A stretch of 64,000 nucleotides of DNA from Spinacia oleracea (lineage: Eukaryota > Streptophyta > Magnoliopsida > Caryophyllales > Amaranthaceae), in contig NC_079487.1 in NCBI RefSeq assembly GCF_020520425.1, positions 104,256,141 through 104,320,140 on the forward strand. The letters are read 5' to 3'. A program made the position numbers and the translations under genes. Positions 30,227 to 61,411 of this stretch are shown here, one piece after another; position 1 is the stretch's first letter, and each line of letters opens with the position of its first letter. The notes beneath the pieces were generated by a model that worked only from the letters and a program-made list of their open reading frames with translations, did not search any database and was not told where the DNA came from.

Positions 30227-30345
30227 ATATATATATATATATATATATATATGGTCCCCCTCCAATGAGAAGTTCCTTAAAATGAGAAGGATAGGAAGGG
30301 ATCTTGACCGTCCAAACGAGCTTAATCCTACAGCTAAGATAACGC
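30227..30345. repeat. AT microsatellite next to an AATGAGAAG-type transposon end
   Basis: (AT)n at 30227-30252 runs directly into GGTCCCCCTCCAATGAGAAG, then TTAAAATGAGAAGG. The same arrangement occurs inverted at 42.69-42.88 kb. The paired layout suggests the terminus of a dispersed element family. Confidence 0.55.
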
Positions 30346-30861
30346 GCGTGGAAAGAAAAACACTAAACCCAGCAAGTGAAAAAATCGAAACAAAATTGTC
30401 TCTCCCTTGCTTCCTGCGTACTATTTTCTCTTCCTTGTTTGTTGAGCTCTTCTTTCATGGCGGAAATTAAACCTTGAAGCTTTAATTAATCAATTGTTTC
30501 TCCTAATTCTGGTTCTCATTAAACATAATTTCTGAAAAGATGTAAACAATTCCCCAGCACGAAGGTATTTTCTTCTGTTCTTTTCTAATTAAGTAGTTTT
30601 TAATTATTAAAATTAGGCTTTCGAAATTATTAAACCAATTACAAATTGATAGCGAAATTGAATTGATTAATAAATTTTGATTGCGAAATTGAATAATTTT
30701 AATTTACTCATGTTGAATTTCTTGGGGGGTTTAAGACCTGTTGTTGTTGGGTTTAAGCACCAAAAAAAGGAAGTGCATTTTTAGCTCAAAATAGTGCACT
30801 ATTTAGCCATTCAACCAAAAATATAATGTAGTAAAAATATGTGGAGGAATCAAGTGGGGTT

Positions 30862-31071
30862 ATGATATTGAAGTTGGCAGGTGGGCTCTGTGTTGTGCTC
30901 TTCTGTTTGGAGTGGATGGTTTTGACGGTGGCCTTCTTCTTGAAGTATTATGCTGTTGTTAAAGGTTGCGGCGGCGGTGGTGGCAGTGTTAATGGAGGTT
31001 TTAAGAAGAGTTCTAAAGTGGAGAGTTCTGAGGAAGTAATGGGTAATTTGCCTTACCCTAATGCAGTCTAA
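30862..31071 (+). CDS. Possible small single-span membrane protein
   Basis: A 69-residue frame starts at ATG 30862 (MILKLAGGLCVVLF). It has one strongly hydrophobic segment (residues about 4-30) followed by a Gly-rich, then charged tail ending NLPYPNAV. The frame extends in-frame to GTG 30841, but GTG is an unlikely plant start, and the ATG at 30839 is out of frame. A 5' leader with an intron (possible donor GAAG|GTATTTTC near 30563) is plausible. I do not recognise the family. Confidence 0.4.
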   Translation: MILKLAGGLCVVLFCLEWMVLTVAFFLKYYAVVKGCGGGGGSVNGGFKKSSKVESSEEVMGNLPYPNAV

Positions 31072-31742
31072 AGATTTGAATTTTTAACAATTAAAAAAAT
31101 AAAGAATTTTTAAAATTCTTTTGAGTTTAATGCCATTTTATTTTGTAATCTGATTGTAATAGAGATTGTAAGATTGTTTACTACTATTATATGAGCAATG
31201 GTTGAGTTTGCATTTGTTTTAACTGTAATCCTGTCTGAAACACCAATTCTCTACATTGGAAAGACAGTGAAATCCTGATTTAGTGATTTAGTCTGTCCGT
31301 ATACTGCAAACAATGTCGCGCGCCTGGTTGTGATCAACTCTAGTCCATTCCGATTAGTTTTCATCATTTTTACTACAATACATGAATGGATGCTTCAATA
31401 ATGTAGCAAATCAGCTTCTAATTTCTAAAGGATTAGTTTTCATCACTTTACTGTACAAGAATGGATGTTGCAGCATCTGAATGTAGCAATCAGCTTGTAA
31501 ACGATAAGTGTTCACAATGTAGCAATGTATGCTAAATAGCTAACTTCGAAACGAGGTAGTATCTGAATGTAGCATAATCAACTTTTGTTTGAAGTTTTGA
31601 ACGAAAGATTGGTTTTCATCATAATGTAGTAGTGTATGCTGGATTGATGTTGTATAGTGCCCTTTTTCTCTAAAAATTTTCTGGTCTTGGACATGCTGAT
31701 TCCGAGTGGTCTTTATTTGTTTTTTTTTCAAGTATTAGTAAT
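31072..31742. other. Intergenic with AATGTAGCA-type short repeats
   Basis: Several irregular repeats of AATGTAGCAA(T)CAGCTT and GGATGTTGCAGCATCTGAATG (31380-31640) occur. No gene recognised. Confidence 0.45.
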
Positions 31743-31810
31743 GTCCATTAGCTCAATTGGTAGAGCTTTGTGCAATTGCACAATGATGTAGGTCTGAATC
31801 CTACATAGGC
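31743..31810 (+). tRNA. tRNA-like sequence, probably non-functional
   Basis: It folds as a cloverleaf: D arm GCTC/GAGC, an anticodon stem TTGTG/CACAA closing a 6-nt loop CAATTG, T arm GTAGG/CCTAC with loop TCTGAAT, and a weak acceptor stem. The 6-nt loop instead of 7 and the imperfect acceptor argue against a working tRNA. TTGTGCAATTGCACAA is a perfect palindrome. A related copy lies inverted at 35244-35314. Confidence 0.5.
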
Positions 31811-31874
31811 AACTCTTTGTATTTTGTTTATGATATTAGTTCTCCTACTCTATTATTCTTTACTTTTGAATCAA

Positions 31875-34060
31875 TTATATTTAAAAAATGAGCAAAAGTT
31901 TTGAATATTAATGAATCCGAACTTTAAATTTAAAAAATGAGCAAATTTTTGAACGTTAAATAATATGAGATTTTAAAATATTTGCTCATTTAGAAACAAT
32001 GAGCAAAAGTTTTGAATGTTAACAAAACCGAACTTTAAAATTAAAAAATGAGCAAAATATTTGCTCATTTGTGTAAACTATAAAACATGAACAAAAAATA
32101 TTTGCTCATTTGTGTAAACTATAGAAAATGAGAATTTTTTTTGAATTTTAAGTAATATGAGATTTTAAAATATTTGCTCATTTAGAAAGAATGAGAAAAC
32201 GCAAAAGTTTTTTGCTCATGTTTTTAAATGAGTAAATATTAAAGTTCGGATTTTAAACATTTGCACATTGGGTCTAATTGAACAAATATTAAAATCCGAA
32301 CTTCAAACTTTTGCTCATTGTGTCTAAATGAGCAAATATTAAAGTTCGGATTTTAAAATTTTGCTCATTGTGTCTAAATGAGCAAATATTAAAGTTCGGA
32401 TTTTAAACATTTGCTCATTGTTTTTAAATGAGCAAATATTAAAGTTCGATTTTAAACTTTTGCTCATTGTGTCTAAATGAGAAAATATTATAGTTTCGAT
32501 TTTAAAGTTTTGCTCATTGTGTCTAAATGAGCAAATATGAAAATCCGAACTTTAAACTTTTGCTCATTGTGTCTAAATGAGCAAATATTATAATTTCAAT
32601 TTTAGATTTTTGCTCATTGTTTTTATATGAGTAAATATTAAAGTTCGGATGTTAATATTTTGCTCATTGTGTCTAAATGAGAAAATATTAAAATCTGAAC
32701 TTTAAACTTTTCCTCATTGTGTCTAAATGAGCAAATATTATAGTTTCGATTTGAAATTTTTGCTCATTAAGTCTAAATGAGCAAATATTAAAGTCCGGGT
32801 GTTAAATTTTTTCTCATTGTGTCTAAATGAGCAAAATTAAAATCCGAACTTTAAACTTTTGCTCATTTAGTCTAAATGAGCAAATATTATAGTTTCCATA
32901 TGAAATTTTTGCTCATTGAGTCTAAATGAGGAAATATTAAAGTTCGGATGTTAAAATTTTGCTCATTGTGTCTAAATGAGAAAATATTAAAATCCGAACT
33001 TTAAACTTTTGCTCATTGTGTCTAAATGAGCAAATATTATAGTTTCGATTTGAAGTTTTTGCTCATTGAGTATAAATGAGCAAATATTAAAGTTCGGATG
33101 TTAAAATTTGCTCATTGTGTCTAAATGAGCAAATATTAAAATCCGAACTTTAAACTTTTGCTCATTGTGTCTAAATAAGCAAGTATTATAGTTTCGATTT
33201 GAAATTTTTGCTCATTGAGTCTAAATGAGCAAATATTAAAGTTCGGATGTTAAAATTTTGCTCATTGTGTCTAAATGAGCAAATATTAAAATCCGAACTT
33301 TAAAATTTTGCTCATTGAGTCTAAATGAGCAAACATTAAAGTTCGGATTTTAAAATTTAGCTCATTGTTTCTAAATGAGCAAATATTAAAGTTCGGATTT
33401 TAAATTTTTTGCTCATTGTGTCTAAATGAGCAAATATTAAAGTTCGGATTTTAAACATTTGCTCATTGTTTTTAAATGAGAAAATATTATAATTTCGATT
33501 AAATTTGCAAATATTAAAGTTCGGATTTTAAACTTTTGTTCATTATATCTAAATGAACAAATGTTATAGTTTTGATTTGAAATTTTTGCTCATTGAGTCT
33601 AAATGAGCAAAGATTATAGTTCGGATGTTAAAATATTTGCTCATTGTATCTAAATGAGCAAATATTAAAATTCGAACTTTAAACTATTGCTTATTGTGTC
33701 TAAATGAGTTATAGTTTCCATTTAAAAATTTTGCTCATTGTGTCTAAATGAGCAAATACTATAGTTTCGATTTTAAATTTTTGCTCATTGAGTCTACATG
33801 AGCAAATATTAAAGTTCGGATTTTAAAATCTTGCTCATTGTTTCTAAATGAGCAAATATTAAAGTTCAGATTTTAAACATTTGCTCATCATTTTTAAATG
33901 AGCAAATATTATAGTTTCAATTTTAAATTTTTGCTCGTTGTGAGCAAATATTAAAGTTCATTAATTATATTTTAAAGTTCGATTTTGTTAATATTCAAAA
34001 CTTTTTCTCAATGTTTCTAAATGAGCAAATATTGAAGTTTGAATTTTAAAAATCTGCTGC
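31875..34060. repeat. 50-bp hairpin minisatellite with 150-bp higher-order repeat
   Basis: About 40 units with a 50-bp period (GCTCATT starts at 33110, 33160, 33210, 33260, 33310). Each unit holds an inverted repeat TTTGCTCATT / AAATGAGCAAA around GTGTCT. The unit linkers come in three types: A (AAAGTTCGGATGTTAAAA), B (AAAATCCGAACTTTAAAC) and C (ATAGTTTCGATTTGAAAT). They cycle A-B-C about five times between 32.6 and 33.26 kb. A and B are nearly reverse complements, so larger fold-backs are also possible. It has no coding capacity. Confidence 0.92.
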
Positions 34061-34420
34061 TTTGGCTTGGTTGTTTGTGGCCTTTGGCCTGGTTTTTTTA
34101 CTTTAGGTGTTGCTGCTACTGCTTGTTTGTTGCAGGTTGTTCTTGCTTGTGTTGCAGGCTAATTCTGGTGAAGTTGTTGCTTCTGCTGCACTAGTGTTTT
34201 GCTGCACTGTTGTTTTTTTGGCTGCACTGTTGTTTCTGCTGCAATGTAGCTGCTGGTGCATCTGCGTGCTTCTGTTATATCTGTGGCCTGTTGTTGCTGG
34301 GGTTTTGCTGCTTCATGTGGTTTTGATGCTGCTGGTGCTGCTTGTTGTTTTGTTTAGCTTGTTGGTCTTGTTTTTTTGCTGTTTGTGTCAGTTAGGGAAA
34401 CGGGATGTGCTCCCTTAACT
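34061..34420. repeat. TGCTGC/TTGTTG-rich low-complexity stretch
   Basis: Irregular repeats of GCTGCTG, GTTGTT and GCACTGTTGTTT produce a 103-codon Leu/Val/Cys-rich open frame. Composition, not selection, explains it, so no protein is proposed. Confidence 0.6.
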
Positions 34421-34928
34421 GAGGTCTTTGCTTCTTTGTTTTGGATATTACGTGTATTACTTCCTTTTGGTAATAAATTTTGTCTATTTTTACCCCCCCC
34501 CCCAAATAAAAGAGCAAAATATATTTACTTTTTCTCTGCGGGACTATTCCTGTCAAATCGGCTTTCTCTTTCCACCAGGCTCGCAGATTGTCAGAGGATC
34601 CGCTAACGGGTTTCCCCTTCTCAGGTATAATCCCATAAACAAAACCCTGGGGATTGCATGACTTCCATCATTTTCAGCATGAATTTCAGAATTCCACCAT
34701 GTGGTCTCGACATCTTTTTCCTACGGGCTTGCTCCTGTGACTAACGTTGCTTGGCAGCACCCGGACTTAGGCTTACTTGCTGATGTTTATCTCTTTGTGT
34801 TGATGGTCCGTTGCAAAGCAGTATGTTGTTTCAGCATGGTGGTCACTCAACCGCCTTCCCCTTTTCCCTAAGGTGGCTGAGTTAGTTGTTCCCACAGTAG
34901 CCCTGTGCTCTGAGAAGTAAAACCAAAC

Positions 34929-35035
34929 TGTGAAAGTTGGTGCTGAGAGGGGTTACAGAGTTACCAATTACATGCCCCTCATGTCTGTTGAGAAGATTGC
35001 TAAGGTCTTTGGAGATCAAGACGGTGAGACAACAA
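34929..35035 (+). pseudogene. Unidentified gene fragment
   Basis: A frame of about 33 codons reads VKVGAERGYRVTNYMPLMSV and continues EKIAKVFGDQDG, with protein-like composition. It abuts the NAD(P)H dehydrogenase fragment, which is on the other strand. I do not recognise the source. Upstream plus-strand sequence (34.7-34.9 kb) also has short protein-like stretches broken by stops. Confidence 0.35.
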
Positions 35036-35040
35036 CAAAT

Positions 35041-35180
35041 TGCAAACTCCACACCTGTTGGCCCTCCACCAACAACAACAAATTGCAAGAGTCGTTTCCT
35101 TTCCTCGTCATTCAGGTGACGAAGGCTTGCCTTCTCGAAGCAATCTTCTCAATAATCTTCTGGCCAATCTCAACTAACTG
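35041..35180 (-). pseudogene. External NAD(P)H dehydrogenase (NDB-type) fragment
   Basis: The minus strand encodes DCFEKASLRHLNDEERKRLL followed by QFVVVGGGPTGVEFA. This is the second dinucleotide-binding GxGxxG region of plant alternative (type II) mitochondrial NAD(P)H dehydrogenases. The piece is about 35 residues and out of frame with the sequence before it. The 16-bp string TTGCAATTTGTTGTTG occurs at both ends of the GGGPTG segment, so the downstream join may have formed at a short repeat. Confidence 0.8.
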
Positions 35181-35243
35181 AGCAGAGTAATTATGGTTGT
35201 CTCCTGTGCTAAATGATGTCCTCTCGAACAAAAAGTAAAGATT

Positions 35244-35314
35244 GACCTACGTGGGATTCGAACCCACATCTTTTGTGCATTTACACAATGCTCTACCTAT
35301 TGAGCTAGTAGGCT
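35244..35314 (-). tRNA. tRNA-like sequence, inverted relative to 31.7 kb
   Basis: On the minus strand the arms are acceptor AGCCTAC/GTAGGTC, D arm GCTC/GAGC, anticodon stem TTGTG/CACAA and a perfect T arm GTGGG TTCGAAT CCCAC. The anticodon loop is TAAATG, only 6 nt, so amino-acid identity cannot be assigned. B-box-like GGTTCGAATCC is intact, so Pol III recognition is possible. It could be a tRNA pseudogene or SINE head. Confidence 0.55.
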
Positions 35315-35392
35315 AGTGTCTTTAAATAGATTCAAATGAGCAAAATAAAGATAAGACTTAGCAACAAGATATTGATGGTACTTAGTACTTAC

Positions 35393-35515
35393 TATCTGGT
35401 CGGCAAGCATTAGTACTGTTTTCAGCGACAACTCCTAGTAGTTAAATAGGTCTTCCAGACTTGGTTCACCTTCAACTCCAAACCATTTCAGATGGGGCAC
35501 TCCAGCTTCAACAAG
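35393..35515 (-). pseudogene. Casein kinase 1-like kinase fragment
   Basis: The minus strand reads [14 protein letters not shown], then PSLEDLFNY, a stop, then LSLKTVLMLADQI. These are consecutive landmarks of the CK1 N-lobe to hinge region. The intervening residues normally found between VEGE and PSLEDLF (about ten) are missing, and a TAG follows FNY. A small decayed exon piece without catalytic residues. Confidence 0.82.
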
Positions 35516-35904
35516 AAGAAAACACGGTCGGTTAACTTACAGGCCATGCATGCAAAATAATTTACTCCGTATTTTGTATCAGTATGCACAAGTTTAGTAA
35601 TCCGTCACAACAACTGCACCTTCCAATAAGGGGTTACCTTCGTACACCAAGGAGTATCTGGATAAACATATTATTTAGTCCTAAACCAACAGTGTAGGCA
35701 ACAAGGCAGAAGGTAAACTATAGGTGGTGACACTTATAAGTTATAACAGCAGCTTGAGAATGCAGAAAAGCCAGGATTCATAGGATGAAAGTTGTTTTAG
35801 GAATGCAGATTGCAGAAACATTAAATTTTTAGGGAATCATAGGCATGAAACATATGATAATGTATTAGATTCATAACATTCACCGTAAGCTTGAATGGAG
35901 AACA

Positions 35905-36312
35905 TCAAACATAACCTGTTCCAGCATGTTGAGCTTGAATAGCAGACTTCTGAATTTGCTTCCTGTCAGGCAGGACACATCCAAGAGCAGAATCAGGATG
36001 GGAAACTGATTGGTTGGAAGAAATGAGCTTCCTGAAAACTGATCTGACATCATCTACTGTAAACTTCTGAATTTGCTTCCTGTCAGGCTTCCAGTAACCA
36101 GAATTTTCACCTTGGTATATCTGCAGGCCAGATATCCTAAAACAAAGATACACTGGTTGTTCCTCTATCTTTTCTGAGGCACTTGGTAACATAGTCTTCA
36201 GATACTTGAGGATAGCATGTTCTGGATCCAATCTTGATGTCGACGATGCATGGTTTTACATAGTATGAGACAACATCTTGCGGAACAAGATGGGGATGCA
36301 GTCCAGATCCAT
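35905..36312 (-). pseudogene. Inositol polyphosphate multikinase (IPK2) fragment
   Basis: The minus strand reads GSGLHPHLVPQDVV, then PCIVDIKIGSRT, EDYVTKCLRKDRGTTSVSL, then after a frame change FRISGLQIYQG, WKPDRKQIQKF and DDVRSVFRKLISSNQS. The inositol phosphate kinase signature PxxxDxKxG is present. IPK2 phosphorylates IP3 and IP4 in the cytosol and nucleus. The copy is dead: a frameshift follows SVSL, the usual RTWYP is RTCYP, and the N-terminal part is absent. The motif PDRKQIQK with its 20-bp coding sequence is repeated downstream, replacing the normal C-terminus. Confidence 0.85.
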
Positions 36313-36682
36313 CATTCCATCAGTGTGCATCCCCTCAAAAACCTCCGGCTTTAAGAATAAGTTTAACCACTAGAAGATCGTAAGGTGCTTTGAGGAATGT
36401 CACTGTAAGAAGAGGTGTCTAATAGACTAAAATATTTACCCATTTTTATTGCGCTAACACGAAACAAAGCTCTGTTTCTCTAGCAACAATTTTGTTATAA
36501 CACAAAAAGTTGAAAGAACTTGTTTACATAAGTTGTGTCTTCTAACTTCATTTTGATCTACATCCAGCACAACCAGGGAACAAAACTATCACCAAGATAG
36601 AGAAAATGATGCATACCTTCTTCTTATATGCATCGTTCACAGGGATAAATAGCCTCAAATAACATGGTAACATTCTGAATAC

Positions 36683-36791
36683 AATGCATCGTCAGGACAC
36701 CCGTAGAAAAACCGTGCCACAGGTCCTACACTGAGTGTGAGAGCTGGTCCCCAGGAGACGGTGGGTGCAGGAAGCCATACAAGCAACAAAT
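36683..36791 (-). pseudogene. RETICULATA-related (DUF3411) exon fragment
   Basis: After an acceptor-like TTGCAG, the minus strand reads DLLLVWLPAPTVSWGPAL and PVARFFYGCPDDAL. This closely matches the conserved WLPAPTVSL...FFxxCPDNAFQ exon of plastid RETICULATA-related membrane proteins. Only this exon is recognisable. A further minus-strand stretch LFIPVNDAYKKK (36612-36665) follows but is unassigned. Confidence 0.78.
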
Positions 36792-37306
36792 CTGCAACCA
36801 GAGCCATTATCTACAGCGAACTCAAATTTTGATTTATAGATTATCGATCTACTTATTAAGTAATTGCCAAAAATATAAATTATAAGCACCGGAAAGAGGA
36901 AGAAATAACAACTATTCACTAGTGAACAGAATAAGGCCATTCAAACAATCAGCAAAACGCAGCCTAGACTTACTCACTTTTGCTCATTTGCACAACATGC
37001 AGGCATCAGATGGTCAATTTCGTAAAATTAAAGAGTTTTTTTTATTTAATTTCCAAACAGGGAGTACCAAACATAGAGCTGAACAGATAAGTTCACCCCA
37101 CTAGCTTAAATAATTCAGAAATATGTTTTCGTTTTCATGTTTTCCCTTTGTCACGCTGAAATATAAACAAGACTGGCTTACCTTAACGATCCACCTTCAG
37201 AAGTTAGGAATTCACATTGCAGAAGCTCCATGGACTTGAAGATAGCAAAGAAATAGAATCAACATAAGATGTCAGCCGTTTAGGCGGCATACAGGAACAG
37301 GACCCC

Positions 37307-38663
37307 TGAAGGAAATAATGCCCTTGGTCCAAGTATGCATTTAATGTTAAGTCTAATAAATTCGGTTCAGTATTAATTAACAAGTTAATAATTCAGTGAG
37401 ATCAAGTGAGCTGAATGCCTAGCTAGAGGCCGTTTCAGTTCAAGTGGAATTAATGATATTAATCCACAGCTTACTCTTGACGGATCAAGTATTTAATGGC
37501 ATTAAATACTCCATCTATGGATATTCGGAATCGACGGATCTTGGTTTCAGTGGGAGCTGAGATCGTCACAAGCAAGAAATGAATACTCCGGAAACGATGA
37601 TGTTGCCGGAAACGGAAATATGGATCGTATCGGAAATATAAATATTATCCAAGTCGTAGATGTTGCCGGAAACGGAAACATGGTACGTATCGGAAAATAT
37701 TATCGGAAATGGAAATATTGACGGAATCGGAAATATTGCCGGAAACGGAAATATTGTCAGAATCGGAAATATTATCGGAATCGGAAAATAATTCCGAAAA
37801 CGGAAATATTAAATATTTGTTCGAAACGGAAATTAATTCCGGAATCGGAAATATTAAATATTGTTCGTATCGGAAATGAATTCCGGAATCGGGAATTTAA
37901 TCGGAAGCGCATCGTACGAATTAGCATCGGACGAGGCTTGCTAGACGAAGGCCCAGCATGAAGCCAGGCCCGCGCCCAGCAAGCCAAGCGCCCAACACAA
38001 AGCTGCCAGAGCCTCGCCAGGCCCAGCGCAAGGCCAGGCCCAGCAAGGCCATGGCGCGCGTGCGGGCTGATGCTCGTGGGCTGCGAGCAGCGCCTGCTCG
38101 TGTGGGCCGTAAGGCCTGCGCGTGTTTGTGCGATGCTCGTGGTCGTTCAACGCTTGTGTTCGTTACGAATCCTAAAGCTAATGGAATTCGTAATATGATT
38201 AAATCCTAATCCTAAAAGATAAATTAATTGATTTAGAGTTCTACTAGGATTCTAAGTTAATTAATTCGTATCCTAGTAGGATTACAAATCCTTTTCCATA
38301 TCTCTATAAATAGGTGCCTAGGGTCACAATTTATAGACACAATTGAAGTATTCAAAGGTAAGATTTTCAAGAAAAATCGGTCACTCTCTTGCCCCTATTT
38401 AGCCGAAATCTATACTACCTTAAGGGCGATTCTAGTTGGTCAAGCTTAAGGCGGATCCGGACGTGCTGTGGACTATCTACGGAGGGACGACACTTGGAGT
38501 CCTAAAGACTTGTTCTTGTTCGGTTCGGGCGCAGCTAGGGAGGGCACGCTACAAAGTGTATGCATCTGAATTATGCTAAATGATTATGTGTTAATAATAT
38601 GTTTCCTGTCTTTATGGTTTTTCCGCATGATTTATGTTTATTCATATGTATTATAACCTAACA
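37307..38663 (+). mobile_element. Solo LTR (Copia-like TG...CA) with 5-bp duplication
   Basis: The 1357-bp sequence starts TGAAGGAAATAATGCCC, ends ATAACCTAACA, and is flanked by ACCCC on both sides (37302-37306 and 38664-38668). It matches the 5' LTR at 60.0 kb. No primer-binding site follows, so this is a solo LTR left by LTR-LTR recombination. Inside are many GGAAACGGAAATATT-type repeats, a GC-rich block (about 37940-38150), and TATAAATA at 38305-38312. Compared with the other copy it lacks 34 bp after CTTGAC (near 37480). Confidence 0.95.
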
Positions 38664-38668
38664 ACCCC

Positions 38669-39364
38669 CACAAGGTACAGAGGAATTCTGGCAGCCCTTA
38701 TACGTTCTGTGGATTCAGATAAATAAAATGAATGCATACTACCTTAATGTAAATGGATGATGCATCATCCCAAGCTGAGGATACAACATGGCAGATCACT
38801 GGCTGCATCCATCCTATTTCAACTAGGTTAAAACTTAAAAGAAGAGCATTGCAGCAGATTTTGACGACACAAATAATATCAACATTACACTAGGGACAAA
38901 GCCAAAACTACTATGTGCTCAGAAGTCAACACTACAATACCAAAGCATATGTGATGCTCATAAAAAAAAAGCTATCATTAGGAATCCAATGTCATTGTTC
39001 AGAAGGTAGAACCAGCTTTACCTTGTTCGCTGGTAAACCCCGCAAATCTCGAACCGGTTTCCCGGCGATCCAATTCACGATGTTTCAAGAACCAAACCAA
39101 AACCTTAGCTTTAACGATTGAAGGTCCGGGGAGGCGATAGAAGATAAAATATGTTAGGGATTTTGTTTGAGAAGGCGATAGAAAAAGTAAAATTTGATTA
39201 CAGAATATCCTAAACACTTCGAATGACATAGAAAACATGCATTATAACTTTATAAGTTTATAATATTCTCTTATTCTGCAAGGAGGATATACTTTAGTGA
39301 TTCTATATACATAGTGTTAGTTATCTAAGCCCAGATCATGACAGGTGGAAACTAAGAATATGTA
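38669..39364. other. Flank of the solo LTR, no gene recognised
   Basis: This sequence continues the one at 37.2 kb before the LTR insertion. GC-richer stretches around 39010-39140 are open in both directions (68 and 79 codons) but show no known domain. Confidence 0.4.
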
Positions 39365-39945
39365 TTTGCACAAATGAGCAAAATAAATTTACTCATTTGA
39401 GCAAATGAGCAAAACAAATTTACTCAGTTGAGAAAATGAGCAAAATAAATTTACTCATTTGTGATGAGAAAATTAAATTACTCATTTGTGCAAAAGAGAA
39501 AAATAAATTTACTAATTTGCGCAAACGAGCAAAATAAATTTACTCATTTGCGCAAATGAGCAATAAAAATTTACTCATTTTTGATGTGCAAAATGAATTT
39601 ACTCATTTGTGCAAATGAGCAAAATAAATTTACTCATTTGCGCAAATGAGCAAAATACATTTACTCATTTGCGCAAATGAGCAAAATACATTTACTCATT
39701 TGAGCAAATGAGCAAAATACATTTACTCATTTGCGCAAATGAGCAAAATACATTTACTCATTTGCGCAAATGAGCAAAATAAATTTACTCATTTGCGCAA
39801 ATGAGCAAAATAAATTTACTCATTTGCGCAAATGAGCAAAATAAATTTACTCATTTATGCAAATGAGCAAAATAAATTAACTCATTTATGCAAATGCATG
39901 TGCAAGTTTATACTCATTTGCGTAAATGAACAAAATAAATTACGG
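39365..39945. repeat. 31-bp minisatellite with palindromic CTCATTTGCGCAAATGAG
   Basis: About 18 tandem units of GCGCAAATGAGCAAAATAAA plus TTTACTCATTT. The junction CTCATTTGCGCAAATGAG is an 18-bp perfect palindrome in most units; GTGC or GAGC replaces GCGC in others. The AAATGAGCAAA core is the same as in the array at 31.9-34.1 kb. Three more units lie at 40284-40384. Confidence 0.93.
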
Positions 39946-39964
39946 GGATTCTCCTCTCCTCCTA

Positions 39965-40075
39965 CTGGTCTTCTGTACAACAGACCAAGATATAAAGATA
40001 TAGGGGTTTAAGCTCATGACCTCACATGAGGACTGAAACCTTATGACTACATTACGACTTTACGAGCTAGCTTCA
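39965..40075 (-). mobile_element. Possible tRNA-related SINE remnant
   Basis: The minus strand has TAGCTCGTAAAG (A-box-like) and GGTCATGAGCTTAAACC (B-box-like) about 50 bp apart. No tail or target duplication was found. Confidence 0.3.
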
Positions 40076-40283
40076 GCAAACCATCCCCACTTTTTACAAA
40101 GTTCAAGTATAAATTCCAACTAGTCCCTAATGCTCTACCCTGCAAGAACAAGATGTAGTAAAGCTCGTACAACAAGGACATGCACTCATTGAGAAAGAAA
40201 AAAAGAAAACACGGGAGAACACAGTACAAAGATTTTTTTGCCATCTCTTCCATAGTTCCATTACTCTTGTGTTGTTAGTTGTT

Positions 40284-40384
40284 TTACTCATTTGTGCAAA
40301 TGAGCAAAATAAATTTACTCATTTGTGCAAATGAGCAAAATAAATTTACTCATTTGTGCAAATGAGAAAAATAATTTTACTCCT
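40284..40384. repeat. Three further units of the 31-bp minisatellite
   Basis: ACTCATTTGTGCAAATGAGC and AAAATAAATTT repeat with the 31-bp period. About 340 bp of unrelated sequence separates this block from the main array. Confidence 0.9.
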
Positions 40385-41114
40385 AGTCGGTTGTACTACT
40401 TTGGGATGTCGGTGGGCATTTTAGGAACACAATACAAAACTTAAGATTCATAGAAACTTAGCTATCCAACTGCATTAAAGACAAAAAAACGTTCCATTAC
40501 ATATAAAAGTCAATACATGATTACCTGCATTATGATTGTTTTCTTGGATTACGTGATATGAAATCTGAATTGACCTTAGCCAATGCAGGATTTGCCAAGC
40601 CAGAAAACAGTTTCAACCTTGTATTACTTCTGTTTACAGAGCTTTAAAGCGTTTTGAGTGCAGAAACTTTGGCAGCAACTGCTCGTCAAGGATTGGGACA
40701 GATGACCTCCCATTAACCAACTTCAACGGCTCAACAACATTACATTTCTACAAGAAATACAAGGCTATAGACTACACATCACAAAAGCAAACCATGAATT
40801 CAACCAAACATGAGTTCTCCTAAAAGACCATTGATCATAGTTGGACCATTGATACATTCCTACACATTACCCTTAGATAACAGACTCTCTGTAAAATCCG
40901 ATTTCAAACTAATACCGATTTATGAAAGATGACTAACTTTTCCTGAACATCTTAGAATAGTACTCCGTGTCATGTGAATGTTATCTTCGATTCACGGGCA
41001 TAACAAAAATTAAATAAATTAAACATATCACAAATGAGAAAATGCAGACATATTTCTTGAACTGAAGACATGTTTGTTCTCGAACTGTAAGAAAGAACTG
41101 CAAGAAACAACTGG
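40385..41114. other. No gene recognised
   Basis: A short minus-strand stretch near 40640-40740 (KLVNGRSSVPILDEQLLPKF, ending at a stop) looks protein-like but I could not place it in a family. It may be another captured fragment. Confidence 0.3.
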
Positions 41115-41405
41115 CTGGAGATATCGAATGGCAGGAAATATCGAACCAGTTAAACTGTTGTTATACAGATAAAGATCAGTCAGATTAAGTAGACCATATA
41201 ACTCGACCGGTATCGACCCACTAAGTGTATTGTTGGATAAATCAAGCCTTTCTAATGACAGACATTGTCCAATTTCTGGTGGGATTTCACCAGAAAATTG
41301 ACAGTTTGAAAGATACTAGTTCTGGAGGCTAGTTGTGTTTGAACAAATACTAGTTGGTAAAAAACCAGAAAAATGTTTCCTGACAAAACTAAGTCTTGTA
41401 ACTGA
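41115..41405 (-). pseudogene. LRR receptor-kinase ectodomain fragment (GSO-like)
   Basis: The minus strand encodes consecutive 24-residue LRRs: FSGFLPTSICSNTTSLQN, a stop, then FSGEIPPEIGQCLSLERL, DLSNNTLSGSIPVELYGLLN and LTDLYLYNNSLTGSI. The plant-specific LxGxIP pattern and DLYLYNNSLTGSI resemble GSO1/GSO2-type receptor kinases. Damage is light: one in-frame TAG (plus-strand CTA, 41316-41318) and one frame change near 41390. No kinase or membrane segment is nearby, so it is an isolated piece. Confidence 0.83.
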
Positions 41406-42081
41406 TTCGAGGATTCGACTATTACTCCAATATTTTAGCCGTGTTAAAAAGGATTCAGTCTTATATAAGACAGGGGATTCTTATAGTTGTTTACAAAGGT
41501 GATCCTGCAATAATATAATTGACCATTAAGGAATCAAGTGATCAACTATGGAAGTTTTCCAATTATACTTAAGAATTAATAATCACCAATTGTCTTTCTT
41601 TGCTCATTTTCAGTCATCTTCATCAGCAGACTATTGATTATAATTATGTTCATTTAAACATCATAATGTGAAAAATTACTGGTTTGTTTTTAATAGCGCA
41701 ACTACTCAATCTGATAAAACTAATGTTCGACTATAATTTCTTCAATTCCTCCAATAACAAGTACGAATGATAACCTAAAGGACAACAAATACGAATGAAG
41801 CTTTTCACAATTTCTTCAAGTGCTTCCTAATCACAAATAACAAGTAGGGAATAACATTCAGAACAACAAAAACTTGGAAACGTAGAAATCAAGCATGAAA
41901 AACCATTAAATTCGAGCAGTATGCGAAAATCAAATTAAAAACACAATGAACATTAAGGAAATTGAAAACCTAGAAACTAATTAGACTAAATTAGGAACGT
42001 TTACCTTCAATTTCAATCTCGATTATTGCATATTCAAGTGAATAATTGAGTGTTGCAGTATTTTTCGAGAAATTTCAAAAC
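41406..42081. other. Intergenic
   Basis: No gene or repeat recognised. Confidence 0.45.
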
Positions 42082-42310
42082 AATCCCCTTGATTGACATA
42101 TCAAGTGGCATTTTCGTAAATATAATGAAAAAATATACAATCTAAAGATTGCGATGTACAATATATTTGATATTTTAAGAAAAATAAAAATAAAAGGAAA
42201 TAATTCTAATATAAAAAGAGATTGTATATGTAAATATATAGATTGTATATTTTGACCATTTATTTACGAAAATACCACTTGATATGCTTACGTTGCCAAT
42301 CAAGGGGATT
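42082..42310. mobile_element. MITE-like inverted-repeat element
   Basis: The ends AATCCCCTTGATTG and CAATCAAGGGGATT are perfect complements. Inner parts also pair (ATATCAAGTGGCATTTTCGT with ACGAAAATACCACTTGATAT). The element is 229 bp, AT-rich at the centre and non-coding. The target duplication is unclear. Confidence 0.8.
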
Positions 42311-42689
42311 GACCGGGCAGAGCTCGTATTTTTCGCATGAAGAACATAAAATCAAAGCTGAAAATTACTATAGACCATTAGGAATCACTAATCAATTGCA
42401 GAACCTATAATTTACATAAATCAAAAAAGCATTACACTCACCAATTGTAGAAGAGGAGATGATGCGTAGATTATAACAGCGTGGAGATGGTGGCGGTGCA
42501 GTGGTTGCAGCAGGTGAGGATCGGTAGCGGTGAGGAGAGAGAATCACGAAGGAGAGAAAATGGAGGAGAGAGAATAAGGCCGGAGTTCCCGAGACTCTGA
42601 AAGTGAAGCACGAGGAGGGAGATAATGGTAAGTTTCCAGAAGTCAAGAGAATAATTTGTTTATTTGCGATATTTACAGTTATGCCATTA

Positions 42690-42886
<197 letters not shown>

Positions 42887-48080: not shown

Positions 48081-48365
48081 AGGGAGTCTACAACTCTACA
48101 TTAGTTTGACCGGGCCTGGTACTCCTTGTTAGTCACGTACGGGTGTTGTAAAAATCATCCCATTCGACCATTTTCCATGTCAATATTACGCCCTTCATAG
48201 TTTTAAGACTCACATGTTAACCGACACAACTATAAAGGAAATATGGTTGAATTTGATATAATAATGATTCAAGTGTAGTAGTTGACAATAAAAAAATATA
48301 ATTAAAACAAGTAAAGCGTAAAAGTTATCAAAATACGATTACTATTTTTGATAGAAATATACCTA

Positions 48366-49042
48366 GGCTCCGTTTGGTAAGACGTAAAACTTTTTCAATG
48401 TAAAATGATTTTCCATGGAAAACAATTTTCAAAGGAAAACACAATTCCAAACTAGTTTTCCTTTGTTTGGTAACTTAGGCTCCGTTTGGTAAGACGTAAA
48501 ACTTTTTCAATGTAAAATGATTTTCCATGGAAAACAATTTTCAAAGGAAAACACAATTCCAAACTAGTTTTCCTTTGTTTGGTAACTTAGGCTCCGTTTG
48601 GTAAGACGTAAAACTTTTTCAATGTAAAATGATTTTCCATGGAAAACAATTTTCAAAGGAAAACAAAATTCCAAACTAGTTTTCCTTTGTTTGGTAACTT
48701 AGGCTCCGTTTGGTAAGACGTAAAACCTTTTCAATGTAAAATGATTTTCCATGGAAAACAATTTTCAAAGGAAAATACAATTCCAAACTAGTTTTCCTTT
48801 GTTTGGTAACTTAAAGGAAAATGGGAGAAGATGGTGAAGATTGAGGGGAAGAAAGGAGAATGGAGTAGGGAGGAAAGAAGGAAAAGTGGTTTCCCTCCCT
48901 TTCAAATGGAAAAGGGTTTTCCACATTTGAGGGAGTCATGTAAAATTGTTTTACATCCCTTACCCAACCAAACAACGTAAAATGATTGAAAAGGGGGAAA
49001 TCGTTTTCCATGAAAACGTTTTACGTCCTACCAAACGGAGCC
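48366..49042. mobile_element. MITE-like element with four 112-bp terminal repeats
   Basis: The ends GGCTCCGTTTGGTAAGACGT and ACGTCCTACCAAACGGAGCC are complementary and flanked by CTA (48363-48365 and 49043-49045). The left end is amplified: four near-identical 112-bp units begin AGGCTCCGTTTGG at 48365, 48477, 48589 and 48701. The interior right half is GGAAAA-rich. No transposase. Confidence 0.88.
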
Positions 49043-51180: not shown

Positions 51181-52379
51181 CGTTTAGTAACCCCTAACTA
51201 TTGTACCCGGTACAGCCAACTCTGGCTGTACCCCCGCCAAAAAACGACGCGCCTGTATTGTTTGTTCATTCTTGTTGTATTGTTTGTTCTTTCATGTTGT
51301 TTTTTAAAATTCATCATAAAATTGTTGTATTGTTTGTTCTTTTTTCTGGAATTTTATGTTTTTTATATTGTTTGTTCTTTTTTTGTTGAATTATTTGTTC
51401 TTTCTTGTTTATTTGTTTGTTCATAATAATCATCTAGTTAATGTATTGTTCGTAATGAAATTAAACTCTTCATTGTTCCTTTATGTTTTTACAAGCAAAT
51501 GTATTGTTTATTCTTTCTTTTTGTATTGTTTGTTCTTTCTTGTTGTACTGTAAGTTCTTTCAGGTTGTTTTTTTAATTAATCATAAAATTGTTCATAATT
51601 GTTACTCCGTATATTGTTTGTTCTTTATTCTGAAATTTTATGTTCTTTTTTATATTATTTTTTCTTTCTTGTTTATTTGTATGTTCATAATAATCATCTC
51701 GTTAATGTTCAAAATGAATTGGTTCATCCCCTCAAAAAAAAAAAAAAAAAATGAATTGGTTCATACTTTTTATTTTATTTATTCATACTTTTTGTTTTAT
51801 TTGTTCATACATTTTGTATTTTTTGTTCTTTCTTGTTCTATATTACTAAACATCTTATAAACCCTTGTATCTTTTTAACCTATTTGTTTTCTTTGCATGC
51901 TCATCATTTTCAAATAAGTAAATGTTCATTTTAAAATTAGTTGTGATCATCATATCAAATTAATTACTATTTTCATTTTCAGCCTAAAACAATGTGGATA
52001 TTGAAATTGTGAAAGTCAAATATTGTGTTCAAATCACACTTCATACACACATTCAAAATTATAAGAATTCGAGACTACATCAAAAGCAAAATTCAAGATT
52101 GAATATATAGAAAATAAGTGGAGATTTCTACCAATATTTTGTAATTCAAGTACAAACTTACATATATAGGCAATACCTAAAATATTCAATTTTTTGGTAA
52201 AAGGTGTTATTTGGCATGTTTTAATTGCTCAATATATGTAAATATATGTTCAAAATAATAACATAATAATGCAATAATTAAGTTCATTTTAAAATTAGTA
52301 ACTACTCATTTCACAATCAGTAGATAGATGTTCATTTCTAAATTGGTTGAATAAATGAGGATGACCAAATAATTAGATA

Positions 52380-53575
52380 AACTAGATTTTACCTCGTGCG
52401 ATGCACGAATTTTATTAAATTGTTATGTTAAAATAAAACTCCTATATATACCAACTACTATATTTATATATTAGATTATATTATTTTTTATTTTGGATTG
52501 AATTTTATTTTATATTTATTTTTTTAATTATTAGAGTGTTTGACTTTGGATGAAATTGTATATGCATAATATTAATAATTAATTAATAAAAATATCTACG
52601 TGGCGCCTAATTATTCATCTACGTGGCACTTGAGTTTTTATTCAAAAATAATTTCAAAATATTAGTTTTCATTGGCCGAAAGCAATAGATTTCCTACGTG
52701 GCGCTCTAATATTGGGTTAGTGTTTGATTTTAGATTGAATTTTATTTTAGATTAGTGTTTGATTTTGGATGAAATTTATTTTAGATTTATTTCTTAATTA
52801 TTAAAGAGTTTGATTTTAGATGGAGTTGTATATATTAGTAATTAATTAATTAAAATATCTATGTGGCACTTGATTTTTTTAATTCAAAAATAAATTAAAA
52901 ATCTTATTTTTCGTTGGCCGAAACCAATAGTAATCCTAGGTGGTGCTCTAATATTTCAGCAAATATGTCTCCTTCATATATATACACTAGATTTTAGCCC
53001 GTGCGATGGACGGATTCTATTAAATTGTTATGTATATACCAATTTTATATACTTCGTATTAGATTAAATTAGTTTTTGATTTTGTATTAAATTTCAATTT
53101 AGATTTAAAATAAATAAATTATGAGAGTGTTTATTTTTGGATGAAATTGTATATGCGTAATATTATTAATTAATTAATTAAAATATCTACGTGGCGTTTA
53201 ATTATTTATCTACGTGGCACTCGACTTTTTTAATTCAAAATTAATTTTGAAATCTTATTTTTCATTGGCCGAAACCATTAGATTCCCCACATGACCCTCT
53301 AATATTGGATAATGAATTTTATTTATTTTATTTTAGATTAGTGTTTGATTTTGAATGAATTTTATTTTAGATTTTTTTTAATTATTATAGTGTTTGATTT
53401 TAGATGGAGTTGTATATATTAGTAATTAATTAATTAAAATATCTACGTGGCACCTAATTAATTATCTACATGGCAATCGATTTTTTTAATTCAAAAATAA
53501 ATTAAAAATCTTATTTTTCATTGGCCGAAACCATTAGTAATCTTAGGTGGCGCTCTAATATTTCAGTAAATATGC
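52380..53575 (-). mobile_element. Two tandem Helitron-like units of about 605 bp
   Basis: Each unit starts ACTAGATTTTA followed by CGTGCGATG-type hairpin sequence (52380 and about 52985), contains CTACGTGGCGCCTAATTATT-like and TCATTGGCCGAAA motifs, and ends CAGYAAATATGYCTCCTT. On the minus strand each start reads as a GC hairpin then CTAGT, as in Helitron 3' ends. The units share order and length but are well diverged. Confidence 0.65.
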
Positions 53576-53578
53576 CTC

Positions 53579-53694
<116 letters not shown>

Positions 53695-53862
53695 TGCTCA
53701 TATTCGAATGAGTAGATAAATGTTCATTTCCAAATAAATAAATAAATGTTCATTTCCAAATAAATAAATAAATATTCATTTTCGAAATAGTAAAGGTTCG
53801 TTTTGGATGGGGTACAGACCGCAAAAAATTTGCGGGGAACTAACATCTAATCTTTAACACAT

Positions 53863-54528: not shown

Positions 54529-57500
54529 ATGAGCCTTCTTTATTTCACTTTTGTGTTACTTCTCTTCACACATTGTGGTAAGTGTTTCATACTGCTTTCT
54601 AGTTTTGTTGTCCTGAACCTGTCATGTACTTAATTTCCAGATTTCTATCGTTTTTAAGGTTCCAAATGAGTGAAAATAAAAAAGAAAACATAGATAATTA
54701 GTGACATGAGAAGATAAATTGAGCATTTTGTTTTATAGTACGGAGTACCACGTATGGAGTATATGTTATTATGATTTGTCATTAATTCATTTATCGGGTT
54801 TCAGTAAGTCAATATTTTTGGTGTTGAAACGACTACTTACATGTTGCGGAGGTTGTTTTTTCGCATATCAGATATGTGTGGCAACACACATATCACCTAA
54901 AAGACAAATAGCTAAAAGACAAAAAAGTAAGTACCATTCATGTTAAAAAAAGTATCATTCTGTAAAAAAAGTACCATTCTGTAAAAAAAAGTATCATTTT
55001 TGTTTAAATAAGTACCATTTAATTTCTTTTTTGTCCTTTTGCCTATTTTGTCTTTTGTTCTGATATGTATTTGCCTATACATATCTGATATGCACAAAGA
55101 CTTCCTCCCTGTTGCGCGCGTAATAACCGAACATTGACACTCCTATGTCCTAAGTGTACAAATAATATTTTCTTATAGTGTAAACCTTAACTAGTGGAAT
55201 AATTTTAAGTAGTGTTAATTTGTTACTAAATGTTTAGCACTTATATATTAATCTTCCTAATTTGAGTTGTATTTTTCAATATGTATGTTTGTTTTCAGAT
55301 GCAAGAAATTCTTTAGTGCAATCCAGAAAGCTCTCAAATCCCATGAATCAAAATATGAAACACTTGAAAATTTTGGATATGGCAAAGAACTTGAATATGT
55401 TAATAGATGTATCAATGAAAGATTCATCAAATGCTGAATCTTTAGTAAGCTCCCCATTTACTTTACCACCTTATAATTCTTTAGCTCCGGTTTCTTTACC
55501 GGACAATAATAATGATACACCGCCTTTTTGCGTTTACCCACCACCCAACCCGGAATCCCCCTCCCCGACTATTCCAAGCCCGGTCCAATATAATCCAACA
55601 CCGCCTTCTAGCTCACCTCCTAGTCCGTTCGGTATCGTACCTTCCCCTACCACGCCGGATTTTTCTCCAAGCCCACCAAGCATTGTTCCCGGGCCTCCCG
55701 AGAATGTTCCAAACCCACCTAATTATGAACCAAGCCCACCAAGTGGTGACATTCCAAGCCCACCAGAAGACGTACCGATACCAAGCCCACCAAGTATTGA
55801 TATTCCAAGCCCACCAGAAGACGTACCAACACCAAGCCCACCAAGTGTAGATATTCCAAGCCCACCAGAAGACATACCAACACCAAGCCCACCAGAAAAT
55901 GTACCGTCTCCAATAGGCTATGAACCAAGCCCACCAGTTTTTGAACCAAGTCCGCCGGTTTTTGAACCGCCTGTAGTGTATCCACCACCAACAGTACCAC
56001 GGTCACCACCGGGTGGGGGTGGACGTGGATCGGGTGGTAGTGTTTGGTGTGTTGCTAAACCATCAGTACCCGACCCAATTATCCAAGAGGCTATGAATTA
56101 TGCTTGTGGATCTGGTGCAGATTGTGGGCCTTTACAACCAAATGGGCAATGTTACGAACCAAACACACTTCTAGCGCATGCTTCTTATGCATTCAATAGC
56201 TATTGGCAAAGGACCAAAGCTGCTGGGGCCACTTGTTCATTTGGAGGGACTGCTATTCTAGTCACTGTAAATCCAAGTGAGTATAGTTTTTTTTTTTCTT
56301 TTTTCCTTTTTTTTTTTTTTGCATTTATAATTTTATTCTTACACATTAAATTAAATTAAATTAAATTAAATTAGCCCGATGTCTAATTTAGCAAAGTAGA
56401 TTATATACTCAACTAGATTAGATCATGTGCACGCACGGATTTTGATCAATTTTTCACAAAATATTTAACTGATTATCTCCCAAACTACTGCATAGTTATA
56501 ACATTTTTAACATACTCGTTTAGATTTATTCATTTAATGTGCATGTTTAGAATGCTAATATCTATCAAAATAAAATAAAATGCTAATATGGTAATTTGAC
56601 CAAAATATTGAGTGATATATATTCCATTATTAATATAGCGATTTGACTAAAATATTATGAACTTAGAATAATTATTATCACGCCGTATCTATTATTGTCA
56701 TAATTTATAAACTAAAATTTGTTTCCATACATAAATAGTTAATAAAAAAGTTAGAGAATAAAAATAAAATAAAACCGATTGTTTACAAACTTTTATATAA
56801 GGCGGTCTTACGTAAAAGACCACATTGGTGTCATATAAGTTAAGTAATAAAACCAATTAGTTATGCACGGTAATCAATTAGTTAAGTACTGAAACTAATT
56901 AGTTAAGCACTGAAATCAATTAATTAAGCACTGAAACCAATTAGTTAAAAAATCAAAGTGGTCTTTTCGGTAGGGGGTCTTACACAAAAATTGCCGTGGT
57001 TTAGAAGTTTGTTATGATAATGGATATCTCATATTTTACTATTTTTGTGACTTCTGCTACATTTTTCTTGGCTAACATTCGGTTTTCCAAAATAAAACTC
57101 ATCAATTCGTATTTAATACTCCCTCCGTATTTTTTTAAGAGATACACTTGGTTGGGCACGGGTTTTAAGAAGAATAAAAGAAGTGGGGTTAGGGTACATA
57201 TTTTAATAAATAAGTACATTGGGGACCATGTCCTTTTGAACAAGTGGTGGTGGGGGTGGGGTGGGTGTAGTTGTAAAATTATTTTTTAATTGGATGGTGG
57301 GTCATAAAGTGTAGTAGATATATTATTTAATTAGGTGGTGGGGTTGATAAGTTACCAAAAATGGCAAGTGTATCTCTTAAAAAAATACGGCCGGAAAAGG
57401 CAAGTGTATCTCTTAAAAAAATACGGAGGGAGTAAGGTTTTGCTTTGAATATAAAAACAATATTTCTAAATATCCCTAGAAATAAGCTCCAGGATCTAAA

Positions 57501-59986: not shown

Positions 59987-61411
59987 TGAAGGAAATAATG
60001 CCCTTGGTCCAAGTATGCATTCTATGTTAAGTCTAATAAATGCGGTTCAGTATTAATTAACAAGTTAATAATTCAGTGAGATCAAGTGAGCTGAATGCCT
60101 AGCTAGAGGCCGCTTCAGTTCAAGTGGAATTAATGATATTAATCCACAGCTTACTCTTGACTGAACCCGTAGGGTCACACAAATAGTACGTAAACGGATC
60201 AAGTATCTAATGGCATTAGATACTCTATCTATGAATATTCGGAATCGACGGATCTTGGTTTCAGTGGGAGCTGAGATCGTCACAGGCAAGAAATGAATAC
60301 TCCGGAAACGATGATATTGCCGAAAACGGAAATATGGATCGTATCGGAAATATAAATATTATCCAAGTCGTAGATGTTGCCGGAAACGGAAACATGGTAC
60401 GTATCGGAAAATATTATCGGAAATGGAAATATTGCCAGAATCGGAAATATTGCCGGAAACGGAAATATTGTCAGAATCGGAAATATTACCGGAATCGGAA
60501 AATAATTCCGGAAACGGAAATATTAAATATTTGTTCGAAACGGAAATTAATTCCGGAATCGGAAATATTAAATATTGTTCGTATCGGAAATGAATTCCGG
60601 AATCGGAAATTTAATCGGAAGCGCATCGTACGAATAAGCATCGGACGAGGCCTGCCGGACGAGGCCCAGCACGAAGCCAGGCCATCGCCCAGCAAGCCAA
60701 GCGCGCCGCACAAACAGCAAGGCCAGGCCCAGCAGGCTGCGCGCAGCGCGCAGCGCGCACAGCGCGCACAGCACGCGCAGCGCACAGCGCGCACAGCGCG
60801 CGCAGCGCGCAGCGCGCGCGGGCGCTGAGTGGGCTGCTGCTCGCGCGCACGCATGAGGCCCATCGTGGCTGTCGTGCGTGTGTGTGCAAGTGTTTGTGTT
60901 CGTGCACGTTTCCTAAAACATGCAGAGTTCGGTTAATGATTAAATTCCTAATTCTATTTGATAAATTAATTAAATTAGAGTTCTTGTAAGATTCTAGGTT
61001 TGATTAATTTGTATCTGAATAGGATTACGATTCCCTTTCCATACCGCTATAAATATGAGGCTAGGGCTCACAATTTATAACACAAGTTTCAAAGTATTCA
61101 AAGTGAGTTTTTGAGAGAAAAATTCAGTCACACATTTGCCTATAAAGTGCCGAAAATAATAGTACCTTAAGGGCGATTCTAGTTGGTCAATCTTAAGGCG
61201 GATCCGGACGTGCTGTGGACTATCTACGGAGGGACGACACTTGGAGTCCTAAAGACTTGTTCTTGTTCGGTTCGGGCGCAGCTAGGGAAGGCACGCAACA
61301 AAGAGTATGCATCTAATCTATGCTAAATGATTATGTGTAAATAATATGTATTCCTGGGTTTATGGTTTTTCCGCATGATTTATGAATTGTCATATGTATC
61401 ATAACCTAACA
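59987..61411 (+). mobile_element. 5' LTR of an LTR retrotransposon
   Basis: The 1425-bp LTR starts TGAAGGAAATAATGCCC and ends ATAACCTAACA, the same ends as the solo LTR at 37.3 kb, and is followed directly by a primer-binding site. It contains a run of GGAAACGGAAATATTG-type repeats (60300-60610), a CG-dinucleotide-rich GCGCGCAGCGCGCACAGC block (60700-60830) and TATAAAT at 61048-61054. Pentamer GAGAT precedes it; the matching 3' side lies outside the window. Confidence 0.93.

Follow-up and report, generated by a model that had tools for sequence, protein, structure and literature searches.

Mutator-like elements (MULEs) that target TA microsatellites have been described in several plants. SaTar elements of guayule, rice, sorghum and citrus measure ~0.4–1.9 kb; in the accessible part of their description rice rSaTar1, 3 and 5 are termed non-Pack-MULEs, and neither "gene fragment" nor "capture" appears as a term (PMC5907723). 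According to the available portion of its description, the MuTAnT/AutoMuTAnT system of Medicago truncatula comprises elements of ~200 bp to 1.6 kb with a 9-bp target-site duplication (TSD) and a Jittery-like autonomous element of 4.9 kb (PMC4486113). How plant transposons acquire and recombine gene fragments is, to our knowledge, not a settled question. Here we analysed a stretch of 64,000 nucleotides of Spinacia oleracea (NC_079487.1, positions 104,256,141 to 104,320,140; hereafter the window), in which positions 30253–42786 very probably form one non-autonomous Mutator-like, Pack-type DNA transposon inserted in a short AT run. The original prediction, made from the letters of the window, had placed a unit of captured gene fragments at 34929–41405; the real unit extends well beyond these limits on both sides.

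The window copy was compared with the 894-Mb spinach assembly of 242 contigs, six of which measure 115–189 Mb and provide the coordinates C1–C6 used below. Similarity to sister loci spans from an (AT)13 microsatellite at 30227–30252 to an (AT)49 microsatellite at 42787–42884, such that the copy measures 12.5 kb including later insertions and is flanked by AT microsatellites, its target, at both ends. Inverted ends lie just inside the microsatellites, reading GGTCCCCCTCCAATGAGAAGTTCCTTAAAATGAGAAG on the left and, from the right, TTTACACTCAATGAGAAGGGAGCTTAAAATGAGAAG. They belong to a left terminal region at 30253–30750 (plus strand, starting with GGTCCCCCTCCAATGAGAAG) and a right terminal region at 42326–42786 (minus strand), both supported by genome matches and by a test of the terminal inverted repeats (TIRs). 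For this test the similarity score over the terminal 51–60 bp was compared with 500 shuffles in the five elements for which both ends were available. The TIR is imperfect, and its score was above all 500 shuffles in each of the five elements. At the left end 40 places, the window included, were scored among 186 candidates, of which 32 came within 13 bases of the end. Among the best 40 of 505 right-end candidates, 12 represented the end itself (window included) and 28 a miniature inverted-repeat transposable element (MITE) residing there. The sequence ATGAGCAAA, counted together with its complement, is present 76 times in the element and three times elsewhere in the window.

Element-free sites were found in the same genome. 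Of 653 candidate places for the joined flanks of the window copy 40 were scored, and 18 of these match across the joint; the flanks are contiguous in all five element-free paralogues inspected. In four of these five only ATATATA is present, compared to (AT)13, 12.5 kb and (AT)49 in the window. Of 17 left flanks, 10 have a run of at least five TA repeats in the 30 bp preceding the element. Inspection by eye furthermore revealed neighbours joined end to end: at five places (L033, L044, L047, L069 and C6:19.5367 Mb) family ends abut the same or other ends, either directly or via a TA run.

Copies within TA runs are uninformative for the length of the TSD. For the copy at C1:47.6767 Mb, which lies outside a TA run, the last bases of the left flank predict the duplication and were sought genome-wide behind the right-end motif, with the pattern read backwards as control. 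On the same strand, a match was found at a distance of 30.6 kb downstream. Genome-wide the pattern gave five forward and no reverse matches, the control three of each. The flanks at C1:47.677–47.707 Mb, AATAATGGTA followed by GGGTCC on the left and GAGTGTAAATC followed by AATAATGGTA on the right, provide a 10-bp duplication.

The element carries about ten gene-derived pieces, nine of ten on the minus strand. Their limits were set by DNA comparison with other loci, i.e. by BLAST ends, and Pfam profiles were run against window 34.8–37.3 kb, translated with stops read as X. The only plus-strand piece is a REF/SRPP-like fragment at 34810–35030 (Pfam REF 4.9e-20; source C4:19.058 Mb, 93%), which had been noticed before as an unassigned protein-like piece at 34.93 kb. 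All following pieces are on the minus strand. An NDB-like NAD(P)H dehydrogenase fragment, recognised by translation (Pyr_redox_2 E = 0.021, below cut-off), occupies 35041–35145; it had been extended to 35180, where a fragment of an NB-ARC/leucine-rich-repeat (LRR) resistance gene (35146–35231) already follows. The latter is 86% identical to a gene at C6:34.7707 Mb with a Pfam NB-ARC match of 5.6e-25. Beyond a tRNA-like module, a casein kinase 1 (CK1) exon plus introns covers 35348–35948 and matches C5:1.9714–1.9722 Mb; previously only 35393–35515 had been assigned to CK1. Since this piece includes intron sequence, it was captured from DNA. The adjoining IPK2 fragment, including a re-used 26-bp stretch, is located at 35946–36351 (source C6:130.389 Mb, 93% over 35988–36314); from its earlier limits of 35905–36312 the right-hand part, 35905–35948, turned out to be CK1 intron. 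Three pieces that had been missed come next: an ankyrin-repeat fragment at 36351–36499 (C3:28.2149 Mb, 80%; Pfam Ank_2 at the source), a piece of an unnamed gene at 36496–36598 (strand tentative; C4:157.5849 Mb, 85%) and an NMNAT-like exon at 36588–36690 (C2:104.4408 and C4:111.8691 Mb, 91–92%). A RETICULATA-related fragment at 36683–36960 consists of two rearranged parts, 36683–36883 and 36887–36960, the second copied from a site at a distance of ~1 kb in the source; this locus, at C1:91.766 Mb, is 90% identical and gives a Pfam RETICULATA-like match of 6.3e-8. The last piece, from a GSO-like LRR receptor kinase, lies at 41108–41408 and is 92% identical to C6:124.065 Mb. All five minus-strand places of the original prediction are thus gene-derived, as translations and DNA matches agree, while its list was incomplete and its limits needed correction.

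Pfam named only some of these pieces. On the minus strand of the window IPK scored above the cut-off in two frames (1.5e-7 and 1.1e-5), as did REF on the plus strand, and RETICULATA-like below the curated one (0.0032), while CK1 gave no Pfam match either in window 34.8–37.3 kb or at its source. Likewise no Pfam match was obtained at the sources of the unnamed gene and of the NMNAT-like exon, for which the C2 locus was scanned. The names CK1 and NMNAT-like are thus those that we take the peptides to indicate. Pfam at the source loci agrees with the assignment for REF, NB-ARC, IPK, Ank, LRR and RETICULATA. The IPK2 source is an open 287-codon gene, and the frame of the LRR source is open throughout the 600-codon stretch examined. 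The broken pieces in the window most likely make no protein.

The nearest matches outside the family were located for nine pieces and lie on five of the six large contigs, or on all six if the C2 locus is the source of the NMNAT-like exon. NDB is the exception: besides a longer broken piece at C2:64.84 Mb, the searches yielded just a weaker partial match at C6:58.006 Mb. Identities to the source loci were 74–93% with gaps counted (E from 3e-26 to 1e-141), and ungapped differences 3.5–14%. Given these identities and the same order of the pieces in two other copies, the fragments are not chance resemblances. At the five junctions that have a source or module boundary on both sides, neighbouring BLAST ends overlap by 2, 3, 4, 2 and 7 bp. 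Left out of this count were the junction between the NB-ARC piece and the tRNA-like module, where up to 6 bp overlap, as well as the jump inside the RETICULATA piece.

Numerous short pieces that largely share one orientation are a pattern seen in maize Helitrons, such that a rolling-circle element could have gathered them, which would leave neither inverted repeats nor a target duplication. The bias of nine in ten corresponds to a two-sided binomial probability of 0.02, which like any probability attached to the microhomology is rough, since the boundaries were read from BLAST ends. Helitrons, however, have 5'-TC and CTRR-3' ends and neither TIR nor TSD, while the ends found here read GGGTCC.../...GAGTGTAAAYC, TIRs are present in five of five elements and one copy shows a 10-bp TSD. 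We therefore consider a Helitron origin very improbable. Of the two carriers originally proposed, Helitron or Pack-type, the Pack-type TIR element is the one that fits.

The gene pieces are embedded in modules and arrays, several of which recur in other elements of the family. A tRNA-like module A at 31739–31872 (plus strand) is 92–96% identical in the elements at C1:27.50, C5:71.35, C6:56.16 and C2:16.86 Mb. It is followed by a tandem array of a ~50-bp unit containing TTTGCTCATT...AATGAGCAAA (31875–33942) and by a further module of the family (34061–34487, plus strand; 83–97% in three other elements). A second tRNA-like module B is located at 35232–35349 on the minus strand (ARAGORN 35242–35315). 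To the right of the gene pieces a plus-strand module common to the C2:16.86 Mb element occupies 36992–37306 (95%) and, beyond a solo long terminal repeat (LTR), continues at 38667–39363 (94%). Tandem arrays of a 31-bp palindromic unit fill 39364–39941 and, as a second block, 40283–40382.

We compared the window with 18 other genomic stretches with respect to these blocks. Module B was present in 13 of the 18, a count biased by the choice of many stretches through a query holding the module; it is missing from the C6:127 Mb stretch with three IPK2 pieces, from C2:26.67 Mb and from the short stretches at C2:12.71, C4:182.11 and C3:14.93 Mb. Eight of 21 listed matches of the tRNA-like module are no more than 15 kb from an end match (49 end matches listed), two more (C2:25.29 and C4:28.30 Mb) have an end in the adjoining sequence, and for the remaining 11 no end was found among the end matches listed. 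The module is at least in part a component of the family. A chance insertion of a short interspersed element was considered and rejected, as module matches occur repeatedly near family ends.

In the copies at C6:56.16 and C5:71.35 Mb the pieces from NB-ARC to RETICULATA stand in the order of the window at 97.8% ungapped identity; instead of the LRR half these copies contain a phytochrome-type PAS_2 fragment. Other stretches combine the blocks differently. The tRNA-like module occurs together with CK1 at C1:27.51, C6:19.54 and C3:110.99 Mb, and together with IPK2, at the limits seen in the window, at C2:25.30 and C4:28.30 Mb. REF, NDB, NB-ARC and the module are found at C4:148.86 Mb and on C101 (10 kb examined), whereas at C2:64.84 Mb NDB and NB-ARC stand on the other side of the module. 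The stretch at C6:114.09 Mb holds LRR, module and part of RETICULATA, that at C4:57.24 Mb the module and parts of the right half, and that at C2:16.86 Mb the right half with LRR; no Pfam family was detected in six frames of the unshared 2-kb middle of the latter.

Several observations concern individual members. Directly after CK1 a 46-bp stretch of CK1 intron is repeated at C1:27506845–27506890, C6:19538928–19538973 and C3:110994430–110994475; its presence in all three CK1 elements suggests one lineage. Inside the long family copy on C3, open frames with DUF659 and a hAT dimerisation domain at C3:110996470–110998739 (L022) probably belong to a nested hAT element. At C6:127588084–127595495 (L025–L026) three IPK2 fragments follow one another at intervals of ~3.5 kb, and an open 168-codon frame overlaps each of them; this triplet is a tandem multiplication of captured cargo. 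Element sizes range from ~6.5 kb (C2:26.67 Mb) and ~8.8 kb (C6:56.16 Mb) to a span of 30.6 kb between the two ends at C1:47.68 Mb. Around the window copy itself, 22374–23164 matches 51.25–51.72 and 53.7–53.8 kb (51254–53817) in reverse orientation at 70–91%. This inverted pair at 22.4 and 53.8 kb possibly represents the ends of a larger ~31-kb element surrounding the 30253–42786 unit.

The sharing of blocks bears on a simpler account, in which no capture unit exists and separate pseudogenes and retrocopies piled up by independent insertions in a repeat-rich stretch. A nested solo LTR and a MITE are indeed present. However, the run from NB-ARC to RETICULATA has the same order, at 97.8%, in three copies that lie on different chromosomes, CK1 has kept introns and the whole block is lacking at element-free sites, which leaves this account with hardly any credibility, even less than the Helitron. 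Transposon-mediated capture, as originally predicted, is instead borne out by the comparisons that had been proposed along with it: sources lie at loci elsewhere, on different chromosomes, other copies share much of the composite together with its outer ends, and sites free of the insertion were found for the element as well as for the LTR.

Both nested insertions could be delimited. The solo LTR occupies 37307–38663 and is flanked by a TSD, ACCCC; the C2:16.86 Mb element is contiguous across this site (36992–37306 adjoining 38667–39363), which confirms the earlier claim that the LTR at 37.3 kb inserted later. A repeat-rich stretch at 60342–60614 with GGAAACGGAAATATT units resembles the part of the solo LTR at 37.6–37.9 kb and is probably a second LTR of the same family. 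The MITE resides in the right end at 42068–42325, and other right ends are continuous across its site with a 10-bp overlap.

A single switch point was found within the window copy, at 36974–36999, where half a palindromic array unit is joined to other sequence (CACAA joined to CATGC). In the copies on C5 and C6 and in the stretch at C2:12.71 Mb, CTTACTCA is followed by the array unit TTTGCTCATTTGCACAAATGAG. At this point the window has CTTACTCACTTTTGCTCATTTGCACAACATGCAGG and the C2:16.86 Mb element AGAACAGAACAACATGCAGG. The window follows the C5/C6 sequence up to the palindrome axis and from there the C2:16.86 Mb sequence, the letters ACAA being common to both. As read from these alignments, the window copy is the left half of the C6:56.16/C5:71.35 Mb lineage joined to the right half of the C2:16.86 Mb lineage at the axis of an array palindrome.

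Regarding its class, the family shares with Pack-MULEs the TIRs, a TSD within 8–11 bp (10 bp, in one copy) and the cellular gene fragments inside. With SaTar and MuTAnT it shares insertion into TA microsatellites and elements standing end to end, but not the small size of ~0.2–1.9 kb. Ends, TSD and TA targeting fit a non-autonomous Mutator-like element of the MuTAnT/SaTar sort. Two further superfamilies were rejected. CACTA elements are defined by CACTA ends and a 3-bp TSD; here the ends are GGGTCC and GATTTACACTC and the TSD of one copy is 10 bp. The same 10-bp TSD led to the rejection of hAT, which is defined by an 8-bp TSD and a hAT transposase partner.

A number of results weigh against the assignment to a Pack-type MULE in a short AT run, or against parts of it. 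Among the best 150 of 1960 transposase candidates, with two small contigs left out, no MULE transposase (PF10551) was located within 15 kb of the 49 listed end matches, the nearest being ~96 kb away. The membership among MULEs therefore rests on ends and TSD. This gap, together with termini that carry two or three AATGAGAAG motifs and lack a long near-perfect TIR, would suit a TIR transposon of a non-Mutator superfamily that merely resembles the TA-targeting MULEs. Given that the 10-bp TSD, the targeting of TA runs and the end-to-end neighbours match MuTAnT/SaTar MULEs, we regard such an origin as unlikely, albeit clearly less so than the two alternatives discussed above. With respect to the target, the fifth empty site (L075) has a longer rather than a short TA run, 7 of the 17 left flanks are without a TA run (L036 and L045 among these being altered or short of the end), and the TSD prediction for the C2:35.716 Mb copy failed, its single genome match lying elsewhere. 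With respect to the cargo, the C5:71.35 and C6:56.16 Mb sisters lack REF and NDB (34585–35122), the two NMNAT source candidates are indistinguishable, and the junction overlaps depend on BLAST ends, one of the five requiring a point change. Some source loci may furthermore be derivatives rather than true parents: divergence is highest for the second part of CK1, NB-ARC, ankyrin and RETICULATA (Jukes-Cantor 0.10–0.15), and for this reason these four loci are perhaps not the direct parents.

Taken as a MULE of the Pack type, the family suggests the following course of events. A MULE transposase made elsewhere would bind the repeated AATGAGAAG motifs of the ends and mobilise the element in trans. 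The interior grew by copying short stretches of unrelated genes, introns included, joined at 2–7 bp of shared letters; capture would most likely have proceeded by a switch of template inside the element while DNA was being repaired or replication had stalled. The composite then multiplied by transposition, as seen from the three copies that share NB-ARC to RETICULATA, and blocks, which are found in different sets, were probably exchanged with sister elements. A more tentative idea, which we rate as possible but rather doubtful, is that the palindromic arrays, whose units are built around TTTGCTCATTTGYGCAAATGAGCAAA, and the tRNA-like modules act as built-in switch points where forks stall and copying jumps to other genes or to sister elements, such that the family reshuffles a common pool of gene scraps into new sets.

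Apart from the element and its relatives, the window contains an uninterrupted 628-codon frame with Sec23/Sec24 domains (12297–14180), four tandem copies of a 112-bp unit that are 98% alike (48364–48813) and a frame of 373 codons (55238–56356) that combines an X8 domain with internal tandem repetition of the CCAAGCCCACCA type.

Most Pack-MULEs are a few kb long. Among the matches listed from the open-access literature (titles and the starts of abstracts), we found no title that concerns TA-targeting MULEs with gene cargo or a family of this sort in spinach. The general kind of element is already known; what is new is a large, gene-carrying relative of the small TA-targeting MULEs. As far as the available parts of the respective texts go, SaTar elements resemble it in their (TA)n flanks, a 10-bp TSD outside microsatellites, an imperfect TIR and end-to-end joining via TA runs (PMC5907723). 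Unlike these, the present family reaches 6.5–12.5 kb and more and contains gene cargo, tRNA-like modules and internal arrays. MuTAnT shares the Mutator-like ends in (TA)n and has fewer TA repeats at empty than at occupied sites, while "gene fragment" is absent from the accessible text, in contrast to the gene cargo seen here (PMC4486113). Rice Pack-MULEs, in the portion of the account at hand, are likewise Mutator-type TIR elements carrying host gene fragments (PMC13317346); in comparison, the present family, a putative member of the MULEs, is larger, is built around tandem arrays and tRNA-like modules and resides in TA runs. The closest published mechanism that we found would be FoSTeST, put forward for animal Pack-TIRs: the available part of that work describes microhomology at breakpoints and proposes that repetitive ends stall replication and switch template before transposition (PMC8277862). 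Those are animal elements, whereas the present family combines about ten pieces with exchange between elements. It displays several steps together, with CK1, IPK2, NDB with NB-ARC, LRR and RETICULATA in differing sets, and as likely sources and clean empty sites are still present in the genome, it can be read from the DNA in which order the pieces were captured and where the switch points lie. The family thereby unites TA-microsatellite-targeting MULEs with capture of the Pack type.

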